Source of the DNA: Opitutaceae bacterium | GTDB lineage: Bacteria > Verrucomicrobiota > Verrucomicrobiia > Opitutales > Opitutaceae | DNA length: 64,000 bases | Reading direction: 5' to 3' | NCBI GenBank assembly: GCA_026125215.1 | Contig: JAHCLN010000001.1 | Location: 1 to 64,000, forward strand | In this document: positions 23,513 to 32,649 of the stretch, piece after piece | Position numbering within the stretch: the stretch's first letter is position 1 | Layout of the letters: every line of letters begins with the position of its first letter | The notes under the pieces: model-generated | Told to the model about the DNA's origin: nothing | The model's database searches: none | Seen by the model: the letters and a program-made list of their open reading frames with translations, nothing else | Translations under genes and position numbers: made by a program

Positions 23513-25330
23513 TCAGCCGCCCGATTCCAGCACGGCCTCTTCGCGCTCGCGGCGGAATTGGTTCGTGTAGAGCTCGTGGTAGTGGCCGCGGTGCCGGAGC
23601 AGTTCCTCGTGGGTGCCGCTCTCCTCGATTTTCCCGCCGGTGATGACGAGGATGCGGTCGGCGCGGCGGATGGTGCTGAGCCGGTGGGCGATGACGAAGC
23701 TGATGCGGCCGGCGAGCATGTTGGCCATGCCCTGCTGGATGAGCTGCTCGGTCCCGGTGTCGATGGACGAGGTGGCCTCGTCCATCACGAAGATCTGCGG
23801 GTCGGCCAGCAGGGCGCGCGCGAAGGACACGAGCTGCCGCTGGCCGGTCGAGAGGCGGTTGCCGCCTTCGCCGACGGGCGTGTCGTAGCCCTGCTCCAGT
23901 TGCAGGATGAAGTCGTGGGCGTTGACCATGCGGGCGGCGGTCTCGATCTCGGCGTCGGTCGCCGTCAGCCGCCCGTAGCGGATGTTTTCGCGGACGGTGC
24001 CCTTGAAGAGATGGGGCGTTTGCAGGACGATGCCGAGTTGGGCCTGCAGCCAGCCGAGGGGGAGTTCGCGGTAGTCGGTGCCGTTGATCAGGATTTCGCC
24101 GGCGACCGGTTCGTAGAAACGGCAGACGAGGGAGACGATGGTGCTCTTCCCGCCGCCGGAGGGACCGACGAGCGCGATGGTCTGGCCGGGTTGCACGGTC
24201 AGGTTGAAATTCTCCAAAACGACCGGACCGGTGCCGTAGCGGAAGGTAACGTTGCGAAACTCGATCGTGTCGATGCGGGCCGGATTGCCGGCCGCACCGC
24301 GGGCGAGGACGGCGGGGCGGTCCTTGATGGCCGGTTCGGTTTCAAGCAGGCCCATGACGCGCTCGCCGGCGGCCTGGGCGGCCTGGATTTCGGTGAGGCG
24401 CTGGGCGAGCTGGTTGATCGGGTTGAAGAACATGCCGGCGAAATTCACGAACGCGACGAGCGTGCCGAGGCTGATCTGGTCGTGGGCGGCCAGCCAGCCG
24501 CCGCGCCACAGGGCGAGGCCGGCGGCGAGACTGCCGAGGGTGATGACGATCGGGTAGTAAACGGCGTTCTGCCGGGCGTTGAGCACGGCGGCCGCGAACA
24601 TGCGGGAGGAGAGGGTCTGGAACTCGGCGAGGTTCCCGGCCTCGCGCACGAGGGTCTTGGTCGTGCGCACGCCCTGGATGGACTCGTTGTAGGCGGCGGT
24701 GATCTGCGAATTGTATTTGCGGATGTCGCGGGCGCTGAAGAGCAGCTTTTTCTGGAAGTAGCGCGAGACAAGGGCGAGCGGCGGCACGACGGCGAGGATG
24801 ATCAGCCCAAGCCGCCAGTTGAGGACGAGCAGGCTGACGGCGATCATGACCACGAGGCTCAGGCCCCAGACGATGTCGAGGAAGCCCCAGCCGATGGTGC
24901 GGGCGAGCCGGTCGCAGTCGCCGGTCAGCCGCGTGATGAGCCAGCCGACGGGCCGCGTGTCGAAGAACGCGAATTCAAGCTGCTGCAGCCGGTCGAAGCC
25001 GTCGCGCCGGATGTCGTGAGCGAGCCGGTTGGAGATGTTGCCGGCCAGCCAGATGAAGAGCCACACGCAGGCGCAAAGGACGAAGGTCACCGCAAAGTAA
25101 ACGGCGGCGTAGAGCGTGAAATTGGCGCCGGTGCCGTCGCGGACGACGCCGTCGATCACCCAGCGGGTGATCAAGGCGAAGCTGGCGTCGCACACGGCGA
25201 GAACCAGCGCCGCGAGGAAAAGCGGGATGAGGTAGCGCTTCAGATGGAACGCGCGACGGAGGAGTTTCCACCACAGGCCGGCGTCGAGCCGGGCCTTGAA
25301 ATCATCTTCCTGGTGAAAGGGTGCGGGCAT
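23513..25330 (-). CDS. ABC exporter half-transporter, second of a pair
   Basis: 605 aa. A six-helix type-1 exporter domain (about 30-330, with LIPLFLAALVLAVCDASFALITRWVIDGV) precedes a nucleotide-binding domain with Walker A GPSGGGKST, signature LSTGQRQLVSFARALL and Walker B IFVMDEATSSID. The signature Ser-Thr-Gly-Gln replaces the consensus LSGGQ, and a Glu follows the Walker B Asp, so it should hydrolyse ATP. Usual members of this heterodimer class export drugs, lipids or peptides. It is 39 bp downstream of the other half, in an apparent operon controlled by the attenuator at 27242-27389. Confidence 0.93.
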   Translation of the reverse strand: MPAPFHQEDDFKARLDAGLWWKLLRRAFHLKRYLIPLFLAALVLAVCDASFALITRWVIDGVVRDGTGANFTLYAAVYFAVTFVLCACVWLFIWLAGNISNRLAHDIRRDGFDRLQQLEFAFFDTRPVGWLITRLTGDCDRLARTIGWGFLDIVWGLSLVVMIAVSLLVLNWRLGLIILAVVPPLALVSRYFQKKLLFSARDIRKYNSQITAAYNESIQGVRTTKTLVREAGNLAEFQTLSSRMFAAAVLNARQNAVYYPIVITLGSLAAGLALWRGGWLAAHDQISLGTLVAFVNFAGMFFNPINQLAQRLTEIQAAQAAGERVMGLLETEPAIKDRPAVLARGAAGNPARIDTIEFRNVTFRYGTGPVVLENFNLTVQPGQTIALVGPSGGGKSTIVSLVCRFYEPVAGEILINGTDYRELPLGWLQAQLGIVLQTPHLFKGTVRENIRYGRLTATDAEIETAARMVNAHDFILQLEQGYDTPVGEGGNRLSTGQRQLVSFARALLADPQIFVMDEATSSIDTGTEQLIQQGMANMLAGRISFVIAHRLSTIRRADRILVITGGKIEESGTHEELLRHRGHYHELYTNQFRREREEAVLESGG

Positions 25331-25369: not shown

Positions 25370-27217
25370 TCAGGCGGGAGCCCTGAGTTCTTTTTGGAAA
25401 TCGGTCTCGACGCTGGTCTGGATCTGCCAGAGGCGGCGGTAGAGGCCGTCCCGGGCGGCGAGTTCGGCGTGGGTGCCGCTCTGGATGATGCGGCCGTGAT
25501 CGAGGACGAGGATGCGGTCGGCGTGTGCGAGGGTGGCGAGCCGGTGGGCGATGACGAGGGTGGTGGACCGGCCGCGGCGGGCGCGGAGCGCGTCGATGAT
25601 CACGGTCTCGGTCTCCGCATCCACCGCGCTGAGGGCGTCGTCGAGGATGAGGACCGGCGCTTCCTTGAGGACGGCCCGCGCGATGGCCACGCGCTGGCGC
25701 TGTCCGCCGGAGAGGGTGATGCCGCGTTCGCCGATGACGGTTTCGTAGCCGTGTTCGAAGGTCAGGATGGTGTCGTGGATGCAGGCGGCGCGGGCGGCAT
25801 GCTCGATCTCCTGGTCGGGCGCGCCGCCGCGGCCGAGGCGCAGGTTGTCGCGCAGGCTCTTGGAGAAAAGGAAGGGCTCCTGCATGACGACGCCGATCTG
25901 CCGGCGCACCCACTGGCGCGGCAGGGAGGACAGCTCGCGGTCGTCGAGGCGGATGGAGCCGTGCCGGTAGTCGTAGAGCCGGAGCAGGAGGTGCATGAGC
26001 GTGCTCTTGCCGGCTCCGGAGGGGCCGAGGATGGCGAGGGTCTCGCCGGGGCGGACGTCGAACGATACGCCGTTGAGGGCGCCGCGGCCGTCGGCCGGCA
26101 GGTCGCTGGCGGCGTGGTGGAAGTGCAGGTCGCGCACGGTGATCCGCCCGGCCAGCGGGGCGGCGGTGAGCGCGGGGTCGGCGGGCGGATCGGGTTCGCG
26201 GGCCACGCCGAGAATTTCGTGGATGCGGCCAAGGGCGACCGTGGCCTTGCCGAGGTCGGTGAGGATGCGCCCCATCATCCGCACCGGCCACAGCATGATG
26301 CCGAGGTAGGCGAGGAAGGCGAAGAGCACGCCGACCGTGAGTTCGCCGGTGGCAACCCACCAGGCGCCGACGAGCAGGGTGAGGCCGAGCTGGCCGAGGG
26401 CGACGAAGTCGCTGACCGACCAATACCACGACATCAGCCGCAGCATGCGGAGGGCGCGGTCGCGGTAGAGGGCGTTGGGCCCGGCGAACTTGGCGCGCTC
26501 GTGGTCGTGGCGGGCGAAAGCCCGCACGACGCGGATGCCGGTCAGGTTTTCCTGCACGACGCCGGTCAGCAGGCCCTCGGCCTCGTCCACCTGCTTGAAG
26601 ACATGGCGCACCTGGCGGAAGTAAACGTAGCCGTAGACGACCAGCGGACCGATGAGGGCGAAGGAGACGAGCGTCATCGGCACGTGGAGCGCGAGCATCA
26701 GGGGCAGCGCGGTGCCGGCGAGGATGACGGCGTTGCCGATGTCCATCACCTGCGAGGCGAGAAAGAGCCGGGTGGTCTCGACATCGCTGGTGCAGCGCTG
26801 CACGAGGTCGCCGGTGTCCGTGCGGTCGTGGTGCCGGGCGGGCAGGTGGTTGAGATGGTCGTAAAGTTCTTCCTTGAGGCGGCGGGCGATGCCGTCGCTG
26901 GCGAGGGAGGCCTGCCAGCCCTTGAGGTAGCTGAACACGCCGCCGACGGCGCTGAGCAGCACCATGGCGACGGCCGCAAGCCAGAGGTTTTCGCGCAGGT
27001 GGTCGCCGCCGCCGAGCAGGCCCAGCAGCCAGCGCATGGGGGCGGAGGTGCCGGGGCCGGGTTCGCGGCCGCCAACGGCAAAATCTATGGTCACGCTGCC
27101 GACCAGCGGCACGCCGTAGTTGAGGAGGGTGGCGGCCAACAGGCAGGCGAGCGCGAACCCGTAGCGCAGGCGGTGGCCGCGCATGAGGGACCAGATAAGT
27201 TGAAAGTGGGAAGACAT
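25370..27217 (-). CDS. ABC exporter half-transporter, first of a pair
   Basis: 615 aa. Six-helix membrane domain (about 15-320) followed by an ATPase domain with Walker A GPSGAGKST, signature [16 protein letters not shown] and Walker B VLILDDALSAVD. The residue after the Walker B Asp is Asp rather than the catalytic Glu, so this half probably carries the degenerate ATP site, as in BmrCD/LmrCD-like heterodimers, while the partner gene carries the active one. The start follows a terminator-like structure and a small leader frame, which points to conditional expression. Confidence 0.93.
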   Translation of the reverse strand: MSSHFQLIWSLMRGHRLRYGFALACLLAATLLNYGVPLVGSVTIDFAVGGREPGPGTSAPMRWLLGLLGGGDHLRENLWLAAVAMVLLSAVGGVFSYLKGWQASLASDGIARRLKEELYDHLNHLPARHHDRTDTGDLVQRCTSDVETTRLFLASQVMDIGNAVILAGTALPLMLALHVPMTLVSFALIGPLVVYGYVYFRQVRHVFKQVDEAEGLLTGVVQENLTGIRVVRAFARHDHERAKFAGPNALYRDRALRMLRLMSWYWSVSDFVALGQLGLTLLVGAWWVATGELTVGVLFAFLAYLGIMLWPVRMMGRILTDLGKATVALGRIHEILGVAREPDPPADPALTAAPLAGRITVRDLHFHHAASDLPADGRGALNGVSFDVRPGETLAILGPSGAGKSTLMHLLLRLYDYRHGSIRLDDRELSSLPRQWVRRQIGVVMQEPFLFSKSLRDNLRLGRGGAPDQEIEHAARAACIHDTILTFEHGYETVIGERGITLSGGQRQRVAIARAVLKEAPVLILDDALSAVDAETETVIIDALRARRGRSTTLVIAHRLATLAHADRILVLDHGRIIQSGTHAELAARDGLYRRLWQIQTSVETDFQKELRAPA

Positions 27218-27241: not shown

Positions 27242-27268
27242 AAAAAACCCGCTCGGGCGGAGCGGGTT
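27242..27268 (-). terminator. intrinsic terminator 5-prime of the ABC exporter genes (attenuator candidate)
   Basis: On the minus strand the stem AACCCGCTC / GAGCGGGTT (9 bp, loop CGCCC) is followed by a run of T residues, and the exporter start codon lies 25 bp further on. A terminator directly before a gene implies conditional read-through. The 5-prime arm (27260-27266, CCCGCTC) can alternatively pair with GAGCGGG at 27297-27303. Confidence 0.85.
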
Positions 27269-27294
27269 CGGAGGATTGCTTTCGATGCTTCCGG

Positions 27295-27317
27295 GGCCCG
27301 CTCAGGATTCGCGGGCC
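27295..27317 (-). promoter_or_regulatory. anti-antiterminator hairpin (arms 1 and 2 of the attenuator)
   Basis: On the minus strand GGCCCGC (27311-27317) pairs with GCGGGCC (27295-27301) around GAATCCTGA. Its second arm overlaps GAGCGGG, which can pair with the 5-prime arm of the terminator. The three segments therefore form the mutually exclusive 1:2, 2:3 and 3:4 pairings of a classical attenuator. Confidence 0.65.
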
Positions 27318-27326
27318 GTGACCGGC

Positions 27327-27389
27327 TCAGGTGGCCGGGATGCCCGCGGGCGCGACGAGGTCGATGGGGAGGTATGCGCGGGTCATCAT
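27327..27389 (-). CDS. candidate 20-residue leader peptide of the ABC exporter attenuator
   Basis: Open frame starting ATG-ATG at 27389 and ending with TGA at 27327-27329; it begins MMTRAYLP and ends GIPAT. Its stop lies 10 nt upstream of hairpin arm 1. A ribosome held on the last codons or stop would cover arm 1, leaving arm 2 free to pair with the terminator arm and allowing read-through. No good Shine-Dalgarno sequence precedes it, but few genes here have one. It lacks runs of one regulatory amino acid, so antibiotic- or nascent-peptide-induced stalling is more likely than amino-acid attenuation. Translation is not proved. Confidence 0.5.
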   Translation of the reverse strand: MMTRAYLPIDLVAPAGIPAT

Positions 27390-27412: not shown

Positions 27413-27435
27413 GGGCGGAGCGAACGCTCCGCCCG
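27413..27435 (-). terminator. intrinsic terminator-like hairpin after the PEP-CTERM gene
   Basis: Perfect GGGCGGAGC / GCTCCGCCC stem with a 5-nt loop, 22 bp after the PEP-CTERM stop. On the minus strand it is followed by GCTTCGTTT, a weak T-tract. It separates that transcript from the exporter leader region. Confidence 0.65.
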
Positions 27436-27456
27436 TTGCCGAGGCAAGCAGGAATT

Positions 27457-30400
27457 TCAGGCGCGGCGCCGGCGCCACACGCTCCAGCCGACGAAGGCCA
27501 GGCCCAAGGCCATGAGCGCGTAGGTGGAGGGCTCGGGGACGGCGGTGAAGTTGAGCATCAGATTGTCGCCCGCAAGGGAGAGGGAGAAATCCCCGGCGGC
27601 GAGCCCGTCGCCCAGCGCGGTCTGGAACAGCGAGAGATCGAGCGCGAACTTCGCGGGATCGAAGCCGCCGCTGAGGGCGTCGAAGCTGAAGACCGTCCAG
27701 CTGTAGCTTTCCCCGGGGGTGAGGCCGGCCAGCAGGCCGGCGCTGCCGCCGGTGTTCAGGGAAATGATCTTGAGGGAGAAGGGGTCCCCGCTGGTGGCGT
27801 TGATCACGAGGGTCTCGGCGTGGTTGAAGATGTTGATGTGGTCGAAGCCTTCCCCGGGCGCGCCGGTGGGGTTCTGGATGTGCCATTCGAGGGTGCCGCC
27901 GGGGTCGAGCTCGAGGTGATGGAAGCCGAGCGAGCCGATCTCGTCCTTGCCGGGCAGACCGGGTGACAGCACGGCACCGGTGCCGATAGCGACGGTATCG
28001 AAGCTGCCGTGACCGGCCAGCCGGCCGCCGTTGTCCACCACGAGATCGTTGCCGAGGTGGCGGTTCTCCACGGCCAAGGTGCCGCCGTGGACCCAGATCG
28101 TGCTGTCGCCCTGAACGCAAAAATCATTGCTGATAACCAGCGTGCCGGCGTTGACCTGCAGCCCGATGCTGGTGCCGCCGAGGTCGGCATTGGCGACGCC
28201 GTAGGCATGGTAACCGCCGTTGTTCAGGCGCAGGGTGCCGGAACCGGCCTTTACGATCCGGAAACGTTCATCATAATCGTTCGAATAAAAGGCTCCGGAG
28301 AAGGTTGAGTCGAGGGACTGATTGATTGTGAGAATCGTGTCGGGCACCTCGGCGTCGAGATAGCTGTAATCCCCGGGGCCGCTGACGAGCCCGCCGATGA
28401 CGGGGTTGGCGGTTTCAAAATAGACATAGCTGTTGTTGCCGCCGCCGAAGGCCAGCGGGCCGGTGCCCGTGGCCTGGTCGGCGCCGACATACAGGTCGCT
28501 GTAGCTGCTGATATAGACGCCACCGGAGAAGCCGGGATTGTTGTTGGCAATGGAAACGGAGGCGTCTTCCCGCAGGTAAAGCTGGCCGGAGCCGCTCAAC
28601 TGACCGGTGAGTTCAAAACTGGCATAGTCGGATACATCCAGCCGGGAGTTCAGCACGATGTCGTTGGCGAGGGTCATGCTGCCGTAGGTGCTGAGGACCG
28701 GGGCGGGCGGATGGCCATCCTCAAACTGCCATTCCACGGGCAGCGTCATGCTGTTGACCACGAGGTCGCCGGTGCCAAGCGCGTTGGCATGGCCGAGAAA
28801 GAGCTCGCCAGCAAACAGGGTGACGTTGCCGGTGAGGCTGCTGTTGTCGCCCATCAGGGCCACGACGGACATCTGCTCATTCAGGTAATCGCCAAAGGTG
28901 GCGGGGGAATAGGGGTCGCCAACATGGACGCCGGCGCTGCCGGAGAGGATGCTTTCCACCCGCAGCATGGCGCCCTTGTAGGCGCCGAAGCGGTAGGGAT
29001 CGGTGCCGTCGTTGCCGGTGGTGATGGTGCCGGTAAGCCGCAGGCCGCCGTAAGGTGGGCCGTCGAACCCGCCCTGTTCGGTCGTGCCCAGATAGACGGG
29101 ACCAGTGAAGTTGCTCAGGTCCAAGGCGGCCGATATGGTGCCGCCGTTGAAACCGATCATACCGTGGGCGGTGTCTGTGGGAAAACGGTCGATGAAGGCC
29201 TGCGGGTCGGCGACGTCTTCCTGGCCGATGTAGCCGCCCTGCTGCAGTTCCAGGGTGGCGGCGGCCGGGAGGCTGGAGGAGCCGAAGATAAAGGCGGTGT
29301 GCGCGGCCCGGACGAAGCCGGAGAAGTCGTTGCCGCCATGGCCGAGATAAACAGTGAGAGGCAGGGCGGAAGGGGAGGCGCCGACGAGATTGCGGGCGGA
29401 TTCATTCGGGGCGTCGCCGAGATGTGCGCCCACGCTCAGGTAGCCGCCGCCGCCGCCGAAGCGGTAATCCGCACCCTGCGGTGTGATGGTGCTGTCGCTG
29501 CCGATCGCGGCATGGGTGGCGGAGCCCAGCCGGGCCGTGGCGGAAAAGCCGGTGAGGTCAATCGCACCCTCGAACACGTTGGTGCTGTCGTAAGGATCGG
29601 TGTCGAAACCGATCGTGCCGTGGGTGGCGGCGGGAGTAAACTTGGCGATGAAATTGGAGGTGCCGTAACCCGGGGCGGCCAGGCCGGCGTAACCGGTGTT
29701 GGCCACGGTGATGGCGCCGGTTTCAGGGATGGCGTCTTCGCTGCCGAAGATCAGCAGGCCGTTCTGCACATGGGTGCCACCGTCATAGGTGTTGGCGCTT
29801 TCGGTCGCGCCCGCATCCAACACGACCAAACCGGCTGCATTGATGGTAAGCGATTTTCCGCTGCCGGAGATACCGCCTTCGATGAAGAGCGGCCGGCCGA
29901 CGGTGGAGATGACCGCGCTGGACTGAAGCGCGACCGGGCCGGTGAGAAACAGCTGCGTGTGGTTTTCCGTTCGCATCGCGCCGATGATGGCGATCGGATT
30001 TTCGACGATCGCTTCGAAGCTGTAATCGCCGTAGTAATCGAACCGGCCGGCCACCAAGGTGGGAGTGCCCCCGCCGGAGGCGTCGAACGTCAGCGTGCCG
30101 GAGCCGAGCGAGCTGACAGGCATGACCGTTTCGTGATCCAAATTCACCTTGGACTGCACCACCACCCGGCCGTCCCTGATGACAAACCCGCCGCTGAAAG
30201 TGCTGTCATCATAATAACCCGGCTCCAACACGAGTGTCCCGGCGCCGGTCTTGGTCAGGGTCCGGGATGTTTCGTCTTCGTAGATGGCGCCCTGAATCGA
30301 GAGCCCTCCGCCCGTGATATTCCAAGTCTGGTTGGCGGTCAGGACGATGGAGTCGTCGATCTTGGAACGCACATCGCCGACGGGCGAATAAACAATGCCG

Positions 30401-30720
30401 CCGGCCCCGAGGTAAATGGTGGCACCGCCGAAGGCCTCCAGTTTATAGGGGCGAGTATGGCCGGTGAACTGGAGCTGGTGGGCCTTGATTGCGTCGTAGC
30501 GCACCAAGGTCTGCCGTGCGTTGCCGAAGATAATCGTGTCGTTGCCGGGGTTGCCCTCAAAGAGCGCCGGGCCAACGCCGCCCTGCCAATTGGCACCATC
30601 GTAGTAACCGTCGTAGAAGGACGTGCTGCCCAAGCCCGTCCAGACGTAGGTCTGGGCCTGCAACCCGACACCGCAACCGAGCAAGAGGGCGAACACCGTG
30701 GTCAAGGGGCGCAGTTTCAT
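27457..30720 (-). CDS. large surface protein with beta-strand repeats and PEP-CTERM sorting signal
   Basis: 1087 aa from the ATG at 30720, which begins a signal peptide (MKLRPLTTVFALLLGCGVG). The body is a long Gly/Thr/Asp-rich beta-helical region with several autotransporter-associated strand units (LTKTGAGTLVLE, AGSGTLRLNNGG, VNAGTLVISN). The C-terminus is a textbook PEP-CTERM signal: VPEPSTYALMALGLAFVGWS followed by a WRRRRA basic tail. Such proteins are cleaved by an exosortase and are linked to extracellular matrix; no exosortase gene is in the window. Base composition matches the host. Confidence 0.9.
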   Translation of the reverse strand: MKLRPLTTVFALLLGCGVGLQAQTYVWTGLGSTSFYDGYYDGANWQGGVGPALFEGNPGNDTIIFGNARQTLVRYDAIKAHQLQFTGHTRPYKLEAFGGATIYLGAGGIVYSPVGDVRSKIDDSIVLTANQTWNITGGGLSIQGAIYEDETSRTLTKTGAGTLVLEPGYYDDSTFSGGFVIRDGRVVVQSKVNLDHETVMPVSSLGSGTLTFDASGGGTPTLVAGRFDYYGDYSFEAIVENPIAIIGAMRTENHTQLFLTGPVALQSSAVISTVGRPLFIEGGISGSGKSLTINAAGLVVLDAGATESANTYDGGTHVQNGLLIFGSEDAIPETGAITVANTGYAGLAAPGYGTSNFIAKFTPAATHGTIGFDTDPYDSTNVFEGAIDLTGFSATARLGSATHAAIGSDSTITPQGADYRFGGGGGYLSVGAHLGDAPNESARNLVGASPSALPLTVYLGHGGNDFSGFVRAAHTAFIFGSSSLPAAATLELQQGGYIGQEDVADPQAFIDRFPTDTAHGMIGFNGGTISAALDLSNFTGPVYLGTTEQGGFDGPPYGGLRLTGTITTGNDGTDPYRFGAYKGAMLRVESILSGSAGVHVGDPYSPATFGDYLNEQMSVVALMGDNSSLTGNVTLFAGELFLGHANALGTGDLVVNSMTLPVEWQFEDGHPPAPVLSTYGSMTLANDIVLNSRLDVSDYASFELTGQLSGSGQLYLREDASVSIANNNPGFSGGVYISSYSDLYVGADQATGTGPLAFGGGNNSYVYFETANPVIGGLVSGPGDYSYLDAEVPDTILTINQSLDSTFSGAFYSNDYDERFRIVKAGSGTLRLNNGGYHAYGVANADLGGTSIGLQVNAGTLVISNDFCVQGDSTIWVHGGTLAVENRHLGNDLVVDNGGRLAGHGSFDTVAIGTGAVLSPGLPGKDEIGSLGFHHLELDPGGTLEWHIQNPTGAPGEGFDHINIFNHAETLVINATSGDPFSLKIISLNTGGSAGLLAGLTPGESYSWTVFSFDALSGGFDPAKFALDLSLFQTALGDGLAAGDFSLSLAGDNLMLNFTAVPEPSTYALMALGLAFVGWSVWRRRRA

Positions 30721-30891
30721 GCGCCAAGGCATGGCAGGCCGAAGGGCGGGCCACAAGACCAGATATGCAAACAAATGGCTAACTTGGAAATTTCCGGTCA
30801 CGGGCGTTTTGGTCGGGGAATGCCCGTTTATCCTCGGCGAAAGCGACTTAAGTGTTGCTGCCCGACAAAGTGCCCCCGCCCCGGCGGGAAT

Positions 30892-32649
30892 TCATCCTCC
30901 GTGGGTAAAATCCCTGGTCCGACCGATCGGCCCGTCCAGCGCGTGGATGGCGAGGGTGCCGGTGCGCCCTTTGACCACAACCGTGCCGAGCGGCCGCGTG
31001 GACCAAGGCCGGGCCGCGGCCTGCAAGGTGGCGGCGCTGAGAATGATGTCGGTGCCGTGCGCGGGATCGCGGGTGAGGGTCTGCAGGCGGGCGGCGATGT
31101 TCACCCCGTCGCCGATGACGGAGTAGTTGAGCCGGCGGTGGGAGCCGATGTTGCCGGCGATGACGCGGGCGGTGTTGAGCCCGATGCCGAAGGCCAGCGG
31201 CGGCCGGCCTTCCGCGGCGAACTCGGTGTTGAGTGCGGCCAGGGCATCGCGCATGGCCAGGGCGGCGGCCAACGCGCGGTCGGCCGAGTCGGGCTGGGCG
31301 ACGGGCGCGCCGAAGAGCGCCATGATTTCGTCGCCGATGAATTTGTCGATGACGCCGCCCTGCGCCTCGATGGCGGCGCTCATCCGGTCGAGGTAGCGGT
31401 TGAGGAGGGCGACGACTTCGCGCGGGGGCAGGGTTTCGCTGAGGGTGGTGAAGCCGCGCAGGTCGGCGAACAGGACGGTGACCTCGCGTTCCTCGCCGCC
31501 GAGGGCGGAGCCGTCGCGCATGAGCTGCGCGGCGACGGCGGGGGAGACGTTTTTGTCGAGCAGATCGCGCACGCGGTCGCGCTCGGCCAAACCTTCGCTC
31601 ATGCGGTTGAAACCTTTGGCGAGCTGGCCGAGTTCGTCGGTGCGGTCGAGCTGCAGGCGGGTTGCGTAATCGCCGCGGGCGATGACGGCGGTGTGGGCGG
31701 CGAGCTGTTGCACGGGCCGGCTGATACCGCGGGCCATGCCCAGAGCCGCGAGGGCGGCGGCCGCGAGGCTGGCGAGGGTCACGGCCAGGATGATGTTTTC
31801 CAGGGCCCGGGCCGGCGCCAGCTCGGCCGCGAGTGAACGCTGCAGCACGATCCAGACGGGTTCGCCGCCGGCTGTCGGCAGCCGGCGGAAGGTCGAGAGG
31901 TAGGGCTCGCCGTCGAGATCGAGTGCACGGCCAGCGGCGGCCGAGTCCGGGCCGGCGCGGAGCAGCTGCGCGGCCAGCGCGGGTGGCAGGGTCGAGGCAA
32001 TGAGCCGGGGCTCGGCGCCACCGCCGAGAAAGGAAACCTCGAGCGCGGAGTCCTGTTTCAGCTCGCGCGCGGTGGCTTCGTCGATCGAGAAGGCGAGGCC
32101 GACCCAGGCCACCACCTCGGGCGGCGGGGCGAGCAAGGGCACCATGACGAGCTGGCTGAAAGTGCCGTTGAGAAAGCCGTAGCCGGTGGCCTCCTGCAGG
32201 TCGCTTTCGTCGGCCCGCTGGCGGAGCACCTCGAAAGCGCTGCGCTGTTCCGGGGTGGTGCGGCCGCGGGTGTCGGCCAGCAACGCACCTTCCGGCGACA
32301 GCAGGACGATCACCGGCATCTGCAGGCGCTGGATGCGGTCCTGATAGGATTCGAGCGCGGAGCGGGCGGTGGCGGGGCTGAATTCGTCGATCAGGAAAAG
32401 CTGCCGCATGGCGTAGTCGGCGGCCATGAGCCTGGCGGCCAGCAGCAGGTCGGCCTCGCGCCGGGCGGAGATGGCCTCGAACTGCTGCACGCCGCGGGCG
32501 AGGGCGGCGTTGATGGCGGTGACGGCCGTGGTCCGGTTGGCCCGGGTGACGATGAGGTAGGTGACCGCCTGCGTGAGCCCGAGCAGGCCGAGCATCAGCA
32601 CCAGCAACCGGGTGCGAAAGCGCTGGAAGCGGAAAACTCCGGCGGCCAT
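30892..32649 (-). CDS. membrane-bound class III adenylate cyclase with sensory and HAMP domains
   Basis: 585 aa. First membrane segment about 12-32 (LLVLMLGLLGLTQAVTYLIV), a periplasmic double-CACHE-like sensor of about 230 residues, a second membrane segment (NIILAVTLASLAAAALAALGM), a HAMP domain (ISRPVQQLAAHTAVIARGDY) and a C-terminal cyclase. Metal-binding FADLRGFT and IGDEIMALFGAP, and the NYSVIGDGVNIAARL motif, are intact, so cAMP synthesis is expected. It is the last gene of the leftward operon, 11 bp after the cupredoxin gene, suggesting the copper protein or the outer-membrane proteins feed the sensor. Confidence 0.9.
   Translation of the reverse strand: MAAGVFRFQRFRTRLLVLMLGLLGLTQAVTYLIVTRANRTTAVTAINAALARGVQQFEAISARREADLLLAARLMAADYAMRQLFLIDEFSPATARSALESYQDRIQRLQMPVIVLLSPEGALLADTRGRTTPEQRSAFEVLRQRADESDLQEATGYGFLNGTFSQLVMVPLLAPPPEVVAWVGLAFSIDEATARELKQDSALEVSFLGGGAEPRLIASTLPPALAAQLLRAGPDSAAAGRALDLDGEPYLSTFRRLPTAGGEPVWIVLQRSLAAELAPARALENIILAVTLASLAAAALAALGMARGISRPVQQLAAHTAVIARGDYATRLQLDRTDELGQLAKGFNRMSEGLAERDRVRDLLDKNVSPAVAAQLMRDGSALGGEEREVTVLFADLRGFTTLSETLPPREVVALLNRYLDRMSAAIEAQGGVIDKFIGDEIMALFGAPVAQPDSADRALAAALAMRDALAALNTEFAAEGRPPLAFGIGLNTARVIAGNIGSHRRLNYSVIGDGVNIAARLQTLTRDPAHGTDIILSAATLQAAARPWSTRPLGTVVVKGRTGTLAIHALDGPIGRTRDFTHGG

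Follow-up and report, generated by a model that had tools for sequence, protein, structure and literature searches.

The analysed window, a 64-kb stretch of DNA from a member of the family Opitutaceae (class Opitutia, phylum Verrucomicrobiota), was found to encode on its minus strand two ABC exporter halves, P0001 and P0002, preceded by a short open reading frame and a series of mutually complementary segments (Table 1). The degenerate motifs of the two exporter subunits complement each other, a pattern typical of heterodimeric exporters, and both proteins match the solved BmrCD (YheI/YheH) chains, with TM287/288 also among the matches. The nearest named relatives of the exporter were from Opitutaceae UBA2377 (94%), Cephaloticoccus and other Opitutaceae MAGs. 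The ATG of P0001 (position 27217) is situated 24 bases beyond the T6 run of the predicted terminator. Directly upstream of the leader lies a gene specifying a PEP-CTERM protein with a weak match to PATR (autotransporter-type repeat), and a further gene encodes an adenylate/guanylate cyclase with a HAMP domain and a weak dCache sensory match.

Table 1. Features of the exporter locus and of its leader in the 64-kb window
Feature	Position	Strand	Remarks
Adenylate/guanylate cyclase gene	30892..32649	-	
PEP-CTERM protein gene	27457..30801	-	
Predicted promoter	27419..27447	-	TTGCCT-N17-TTCGCT; TTGC-type -35 kept before all 28 leaders
Leader frame	27327..27389	-	20 codons and TGA; peptide MMTRAYLPIDLVAPAGIPAT
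Segment Z	27377..27387	-	GATGACCCGCG; codons 1-5; partner of A in naked RNA (10-bp helix in the window)
Segment A	27342..27347	-	GCGGGC; leader codons 15-16; A:B paired in 94.6% of cells (28 leaders)
P0 hairpin	27322..27338	-	CCGGC-CACCTGA-GCCGG, around the stop codon
Segment B	27311..27316	-	GCCCGC; pairs with A or C; B:C 99.4% paired
Segment C	27296..27303	-	GAGCGGGC; pairs with B or D; C:D 97.4% paired
C-D spacer	27267..27295	-	GGAAA..UUUCC inner hairpin in most leaders, lengthening the antiterminator
Segment D	27260..27266	-	CCCGCTC; forms the antiterminator with C or the terminator with E; D:E 98.0% paired
Segment E and T6	27242..27254	-	GAGCGGG; predicted intrinsic terminator (stem with D, then T-run)
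Exporter subunit 1 (P0001)	25370..27217	-	ABC exporter half; degenerate Walker B (LILDD), canonical LSGGQ
Exporter subunit 2 (P0002)	23513..25330	-	Canonical Walker B (FVMDE), degenerate signature LSTGQ

A first-pass annotation of this locus had described a 20-codon frame, three pairings, a T-run and an exporter pair, all of which were present where it had placed them. On the minus strand, GGCCCGC (27317-27311) is complementary to GCGGGCC (27301-27295), the GAGCGGG at 27303-27297 has an alternative partner in CCCGCTC (27266-27260), and the latter forms with a second GAGCGGG (27254-27248) a terminator stem of 9 bp, including flanking AA/TT, followed by T6 (27247-27242). The 1:2, 2:3 and 3:4 layout deduced from these pairings was, however, incomplete, as the element actually consists of six segments and a hairpin around the stop codon (P0); segments Z and A, as well as P0, had been missed. 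Segment A sits 18 nt before the stop codon, the distance between the stop codon and segment B is 11-17 nt (mode 14) across the 28 leaders described below, and the terminator is located ~60 nt or more beyond the leader stop. The six segments are predicted to act as a relay, in which the combination of Z:A, B:C and D:E would lead to termination, and that of A:B and C:D to read-through. The A-B-C pattern was observed once in the 64 kb and in none of 100 shuffles, while the D-E stem also occurred once (expected number, 0.03).

The exporter was searched in 150 genomes of the family, and its relatives in a set of genomes representing 84,980 species. Upstream regions were recovered from many genera, yielding 28 distinct, alignable leaders of the window's type in Opitutaceae. 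Each is located before an orthologous exporter, and in each the elements follow one another as A, P0 (enclosing the stop codon), B, C, D, E and the T-run. Both alternative structures were shown to be 92-94% paired, a level reached by none of 500 shuffles. A covariance model produced 28 matches (E < 1e-10) in 200 family genomes, every one of them directly before the exporter, and among 286 genomes of the class its strong matches were limited to Opitutaceae. Weaker matches (25-45 bits) elsewhere in the family were set aside, the twelve that were inspected being plain 3' terminators or similar. No Rfam family matched at gathering score, and a scan extended to E 10 returned sub-threshold chance matches only. 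At the sequence level, conservation before 28 orthologous exporters settles the observation as real, in that the device is conserved beyond chance.

A TTGC[CGA] motif (predicted -35) was present at the same place before all 28 leaders, and in most of them a spacer of exactly 17 nt separates it from a TTTTCT-like hexamer. One conceivable explanation for the element is a constitutive limiter of read-through, or merely the tail of the transcript of the gene upstream. It is contradicted by this conserved promoter motif and the frame, both of which separate the upstream gene from the terminator. GAGCGGG-type terminators are indeed common at gene ends in these genomes, but A, P0, B and C would have no role in such an element, and this explanation is therefore deemed most improbable.

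The frame and the position of its stop codon were kept in 28/28 orthologous leaders, at a length of 18-22 codons, while the encoded peptide is not under detectable selection. Differences between pairs of equal-length leaders were distributed as 78/77/78 over the three codon positions, and the synonymous share was 17% in the leader frame, compared with 24% and 18% in false frames. Since conservation extends to the start, the frame and the position of the stop but not to the peptide, the frame probably serves to report translation progress. No Shine-Dalgarno sequence precedes the leader, and the same applies to other genes of the window. In the 64-kb window, on which such usage was assessed, Shine-Dalgarno-like 4-mers were found before the ATG of 3 of 34 long ORFs, compared with 5 of 34 in a control stretch (no enrichment), so that their absence before the leader is no argument against its translation, which we infer from the sequence to take place.

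The absence of purifying selection disfavours the guess of the first-pass annotation that the nascent chain stalls the ribosome. A peptide-specific arrest at a late codon or at the stop codon, of the kind seen in ErmCL or TnaC and either aided by a bound drug or not, would be in line with the conserved-looking LVAxAGxP end and M-x-T-R start of the Opitutaceae peptides, and with an R-x-x-W-x-x-G-x-G end in other families. These residues, however, fall on paired segments (AG corresponding to GCGGGC, and the W..G codons to CCUGG..CCAGG), the even spread over codon positions and a synonymous share no higher than in false frames speak against it, and constrained folding (see below) predicts that a late stall would cause termination rather than induction. 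Arrest by the peptide itself is accordingly considered unlikely, while stalling by a drug, the other trigger that had been put forward, would be a plausible candidate. The synonymous pattern on which the first-pass annotation had staked its reading is thus missing from the peptide, whereas the frame and the hairpins, on which it had likewise relied, are in place.

The 28 leaders were also devoid of a shared codon run or a run of one amino acid, the latter as previously noted for the window's peptide. This, together with the lack of a shared codon set, the free variation of residues in codons 4-9 and the nature of the controlled genes, which encode exporters and not biosynthetic enzymes, makes it very unlikely that the leader is an amino-acid (charged-tRNA) attenuator of the trp or his kind, even though its six-segment topology resembles that of the his leader and an Arg codon is frequent near the start.

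Strong covariation was observed in P0, where four of the five pairs exhibited changes on both sides, with 26 double-changed cells compared with 11.8 in shuffles (0/500 as high); P0 accounts for all double changes counted in the structure to which it belongs. In swap tests, from which near-duplicates were removed but which sequence kinship can inflate, the arms of P0 paired far better with each other than with swapped arms (0/2000), segment A paired with codons 1-9 at 0.449 for its own and 0.309 for swapped N-termini (0/2000 permutations as high), and the inner hairpin of the C-D spacer (CD5:CD3) scored 6/2000. The changes in P0 are compensatory yet alter the encoded residues (PA to ST to LT), indicating that the RNA and not the peptide is selected. 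A single compensatory change was observed in A:B, GCGGAC being matched with GTCCGC in L043. A stretch of the 5'UTR, AACCCCGC, was also considered as a covarying partner of A, for which no support was obtained (utr:A swap test, 1311/2000). B:C, C:D and D:E were found to be almost invariant and offer little independent covariation, as is expected where one segment must pair with two others.

Strong conservation of the RNA would also be compatible with a regulator that operates independently of ribosomes (a riboswitch, or an antiterminator bound by a protein or sRNA) and to which the short frame is incidental. The ability of the naked RNA to take either state, and an unexplained pyrimidine stretch in a diverged group of leaders, fit such a regulator. 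Nevertheless, it corresponds to no Rfam family, almost every one of the 28 leaders has its stop codon within the loop of P0, and the start, the frame and the length of ~20 codons are kept even where RNA segments have been replaced, all of which render this option improbable.

The effect of ribosome position was modelled by constrained folding of 26 leaders, in which 31 nt were masked around each P-site at three RNA lengths, and which relies on an assumed footprint and on equilibrium rather than kinetics. When the P-site was 1-10 codons short of the stop codon, B:C reached ~1.0 once C had been made, and D:E attained 0.8-0.96 in the complete RNA. When it was at least 13 codons short of the stop codon, A:B and C:D were mostly at 0.96-0.99 before E had been made, placing the boundary of the switch at 11-12 codons before the stop. 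Naked RNA was ambiguous, as B:C was slightly favoured when C had been made, and the combination of A:B and C:D was favoured before E had been made. In the window's leader, the terminator was predicted (0.99-1.0) both for naked RNA and with a ribosome placed on the stop codon, while early stalls gave A:B/C:D at 0.98-0.99 before E had been made and a mixture at equilibrium thereafter. A simple logic in which absence of translation equals ON was dropped, given the ambiguous folding of naked RNA and the support for Z:A. The models thus suggest that the position of the ribosome on the frame decides between terminator and antiterminator.

In the first-pass annotation, the stop of the frame was taken to be so placed that a stalled ribosome would mask segment 1 (segment B here) and thereby permit read-through, which needs correction. 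Segment B starts 13 bases after the first base of the stop codon, mostly outside the footprint of a terminating ribosome; such a ribosome would mask A, not B, favouring termination, whereas a ribosome would have to stall ~12 codons or more ahead of the stop for read-through to be expected. The broader proposal of an attenuator controlled by a leader frame, in front of a BmrCD-type heterodimeric exporter, is nonetheless upheld by the layout common to the 28 leaders and by the LILDD/LSTGQ pattern of the subunits.

Taken together, the sequence data support the mechanism well and make it probable, at roughly three chances in four, that the heterodimeric exporter is preceded by a ribosome-controlled transcription attenuator. 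Transcription would start from the nearby promoter, and the 20-codon leader would be translated. Once it is on any of the final ten codons or on the stop codon, the ribosome would cover A and melt P0, upon which B:C would form and leave D free to pair with E, causing termination before the exporter. Conversely, a ribosome held in roughly codons 1-9 would cover Z and leave A free, allowing A:B to form, braced by P0, and releasing C. C:D, braced by the inner hairpin, would then keep E single-stranded and permit read-through into both exporter genes. Where no ribosome is present, A could be held by Z or by the 5'UTR, favouring termination, although predictions conflict for this naked state. Both termination at the element and the direction of the switch are predictions. 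The inducers would most likely be compounds that the pump exports and that impede translation at an early stage, by slowing or stalling it, which is a guess; translation-targeting drugs would be the likeliest candidates.

Exporters with 54-62% identity were shown to be preceded by ~20-codon frames, after which the segments, although different in sequence, come in unchanged order, both within Opitutaceae (L054, L059-L067 and L181) and in at least three further Opitutia families (f21, f24 and f47; L200-L202, L204, L205, L213 and L215). The rule separating early from late ribosomes was followed by 12 of 19 diverged leaders, including L070, L200 and L213, while folding of the diverged Opitutaceae group did not separate the two. 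In L051 and L070, from two genomes, two segments have been lost, resulting in a three-segment form in which A:D alternates with D:E; its predicted direction is unchanged, a free A leading to read-through.

Several of the diverged Opitutaceae leaders (L060-L065 and L067) carry a conserved pyrimidine stretch, TTTCCCTCCCATCCC, between C and D, in the loop of the antiterminator. The R-x-x-W-x-x-G-x-G sequence is common to the L200, L201, L202, L204, L205 and L213 peptides near their end; as its W and G codons coincide with the CCUGG..CCAGG hairpin, RNA pairing may explain the residues shared in the other families. No leader was found before the orthologues L035, L052, L072, L203, L214 and L217-L220, and no clear leader before the Phycisphaerae orthologues L101, L102 and L105. 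Upstream of a 51%-identical exporter from Phycisphaera (L104), which belongs to another phylum, a short frame occurs ahead of a terminator of the GAGCGGG type and one more hairpin, and a leader may exist there.

It is possible, though somewhat short of probable, that these leaders represent a sensor of translation progress common to the class Opitutia, of which only the ~20-codon frame, the hairpin near the stop codon and the order of pairings are kept, while its sequences have been rewritten several times with preservation of the sign.

Ribosome-mediated attenuation itself is well known. The his operon leader of enterobacteria comprises six segments, of which 1:2, 3:4 and 5:6 cause termination, and 2:3 and 4:5 read-through, as decided by the position of the ribosome. 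The Z-A-B-C-D-E chain has the same topology, with ribosome position predicted to decide, but the Opitutaceae leader lacks a run of histidine or other codons, has an exporter and not biosynthetic genes downstream, and possesses P0 in addition. The nearest analogue is BmrB/BmrCD of Bacillus subtilis, where BmrB, a 53-codon frame with its own terminator inside, is located upstream of the heterodimeric exporter BmrCD; bmrBCD responds to lincomycin, erythromycin and chloramphenicol, and abolishing leader translation lowered expression (PMC4191407). Control of a terminator by a short frame before a heterodimeric ABC multidrug exporter is what is likewise predicted for the Opitutaceae element, the rate of leader translation being of importance for BmrB (PMC4191407). 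However, the Opitutaceae leader has only ~20 codons, with segments B to E downstream of a stop codon that is itself enclosed in a hairpin, and constitutes a six-segment relay of unrelated sequence in another phylum.

For patAB of Streptococcus pneumoniae, the part of the report drawn on here presents a predicted attenuator of three hairpins (PMC4319486), which differs in having three structures only and no leader peptide described there, and in belonging to Firmicutes. For vmlR (PMC9226507), msrD (PMC10314930) and HflXr (PMC6310831), stalling of the ribosome by drugs is reported to govern the attenuation of a resistance gene, at the level of transcription or translation, these leaders controlling ribosome-protection or splitting factors (ABC-F/HflXr) rather than exporters. 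No Verrucomicrobiota attenuator of comparable kind was found in a search of the open-access literature or in Rfam.

The existence of two relay lengths, with six and three segments, opens the evolution of attenuator parity to study. The element offers a ready bioassay, as the identity of its inducer would show the purpose of this exporter family, in a phylum of which few drug pumps have been characterised. If the class-wide sensor is real, it would render the exporter responsive to any compound that stalls early translation.
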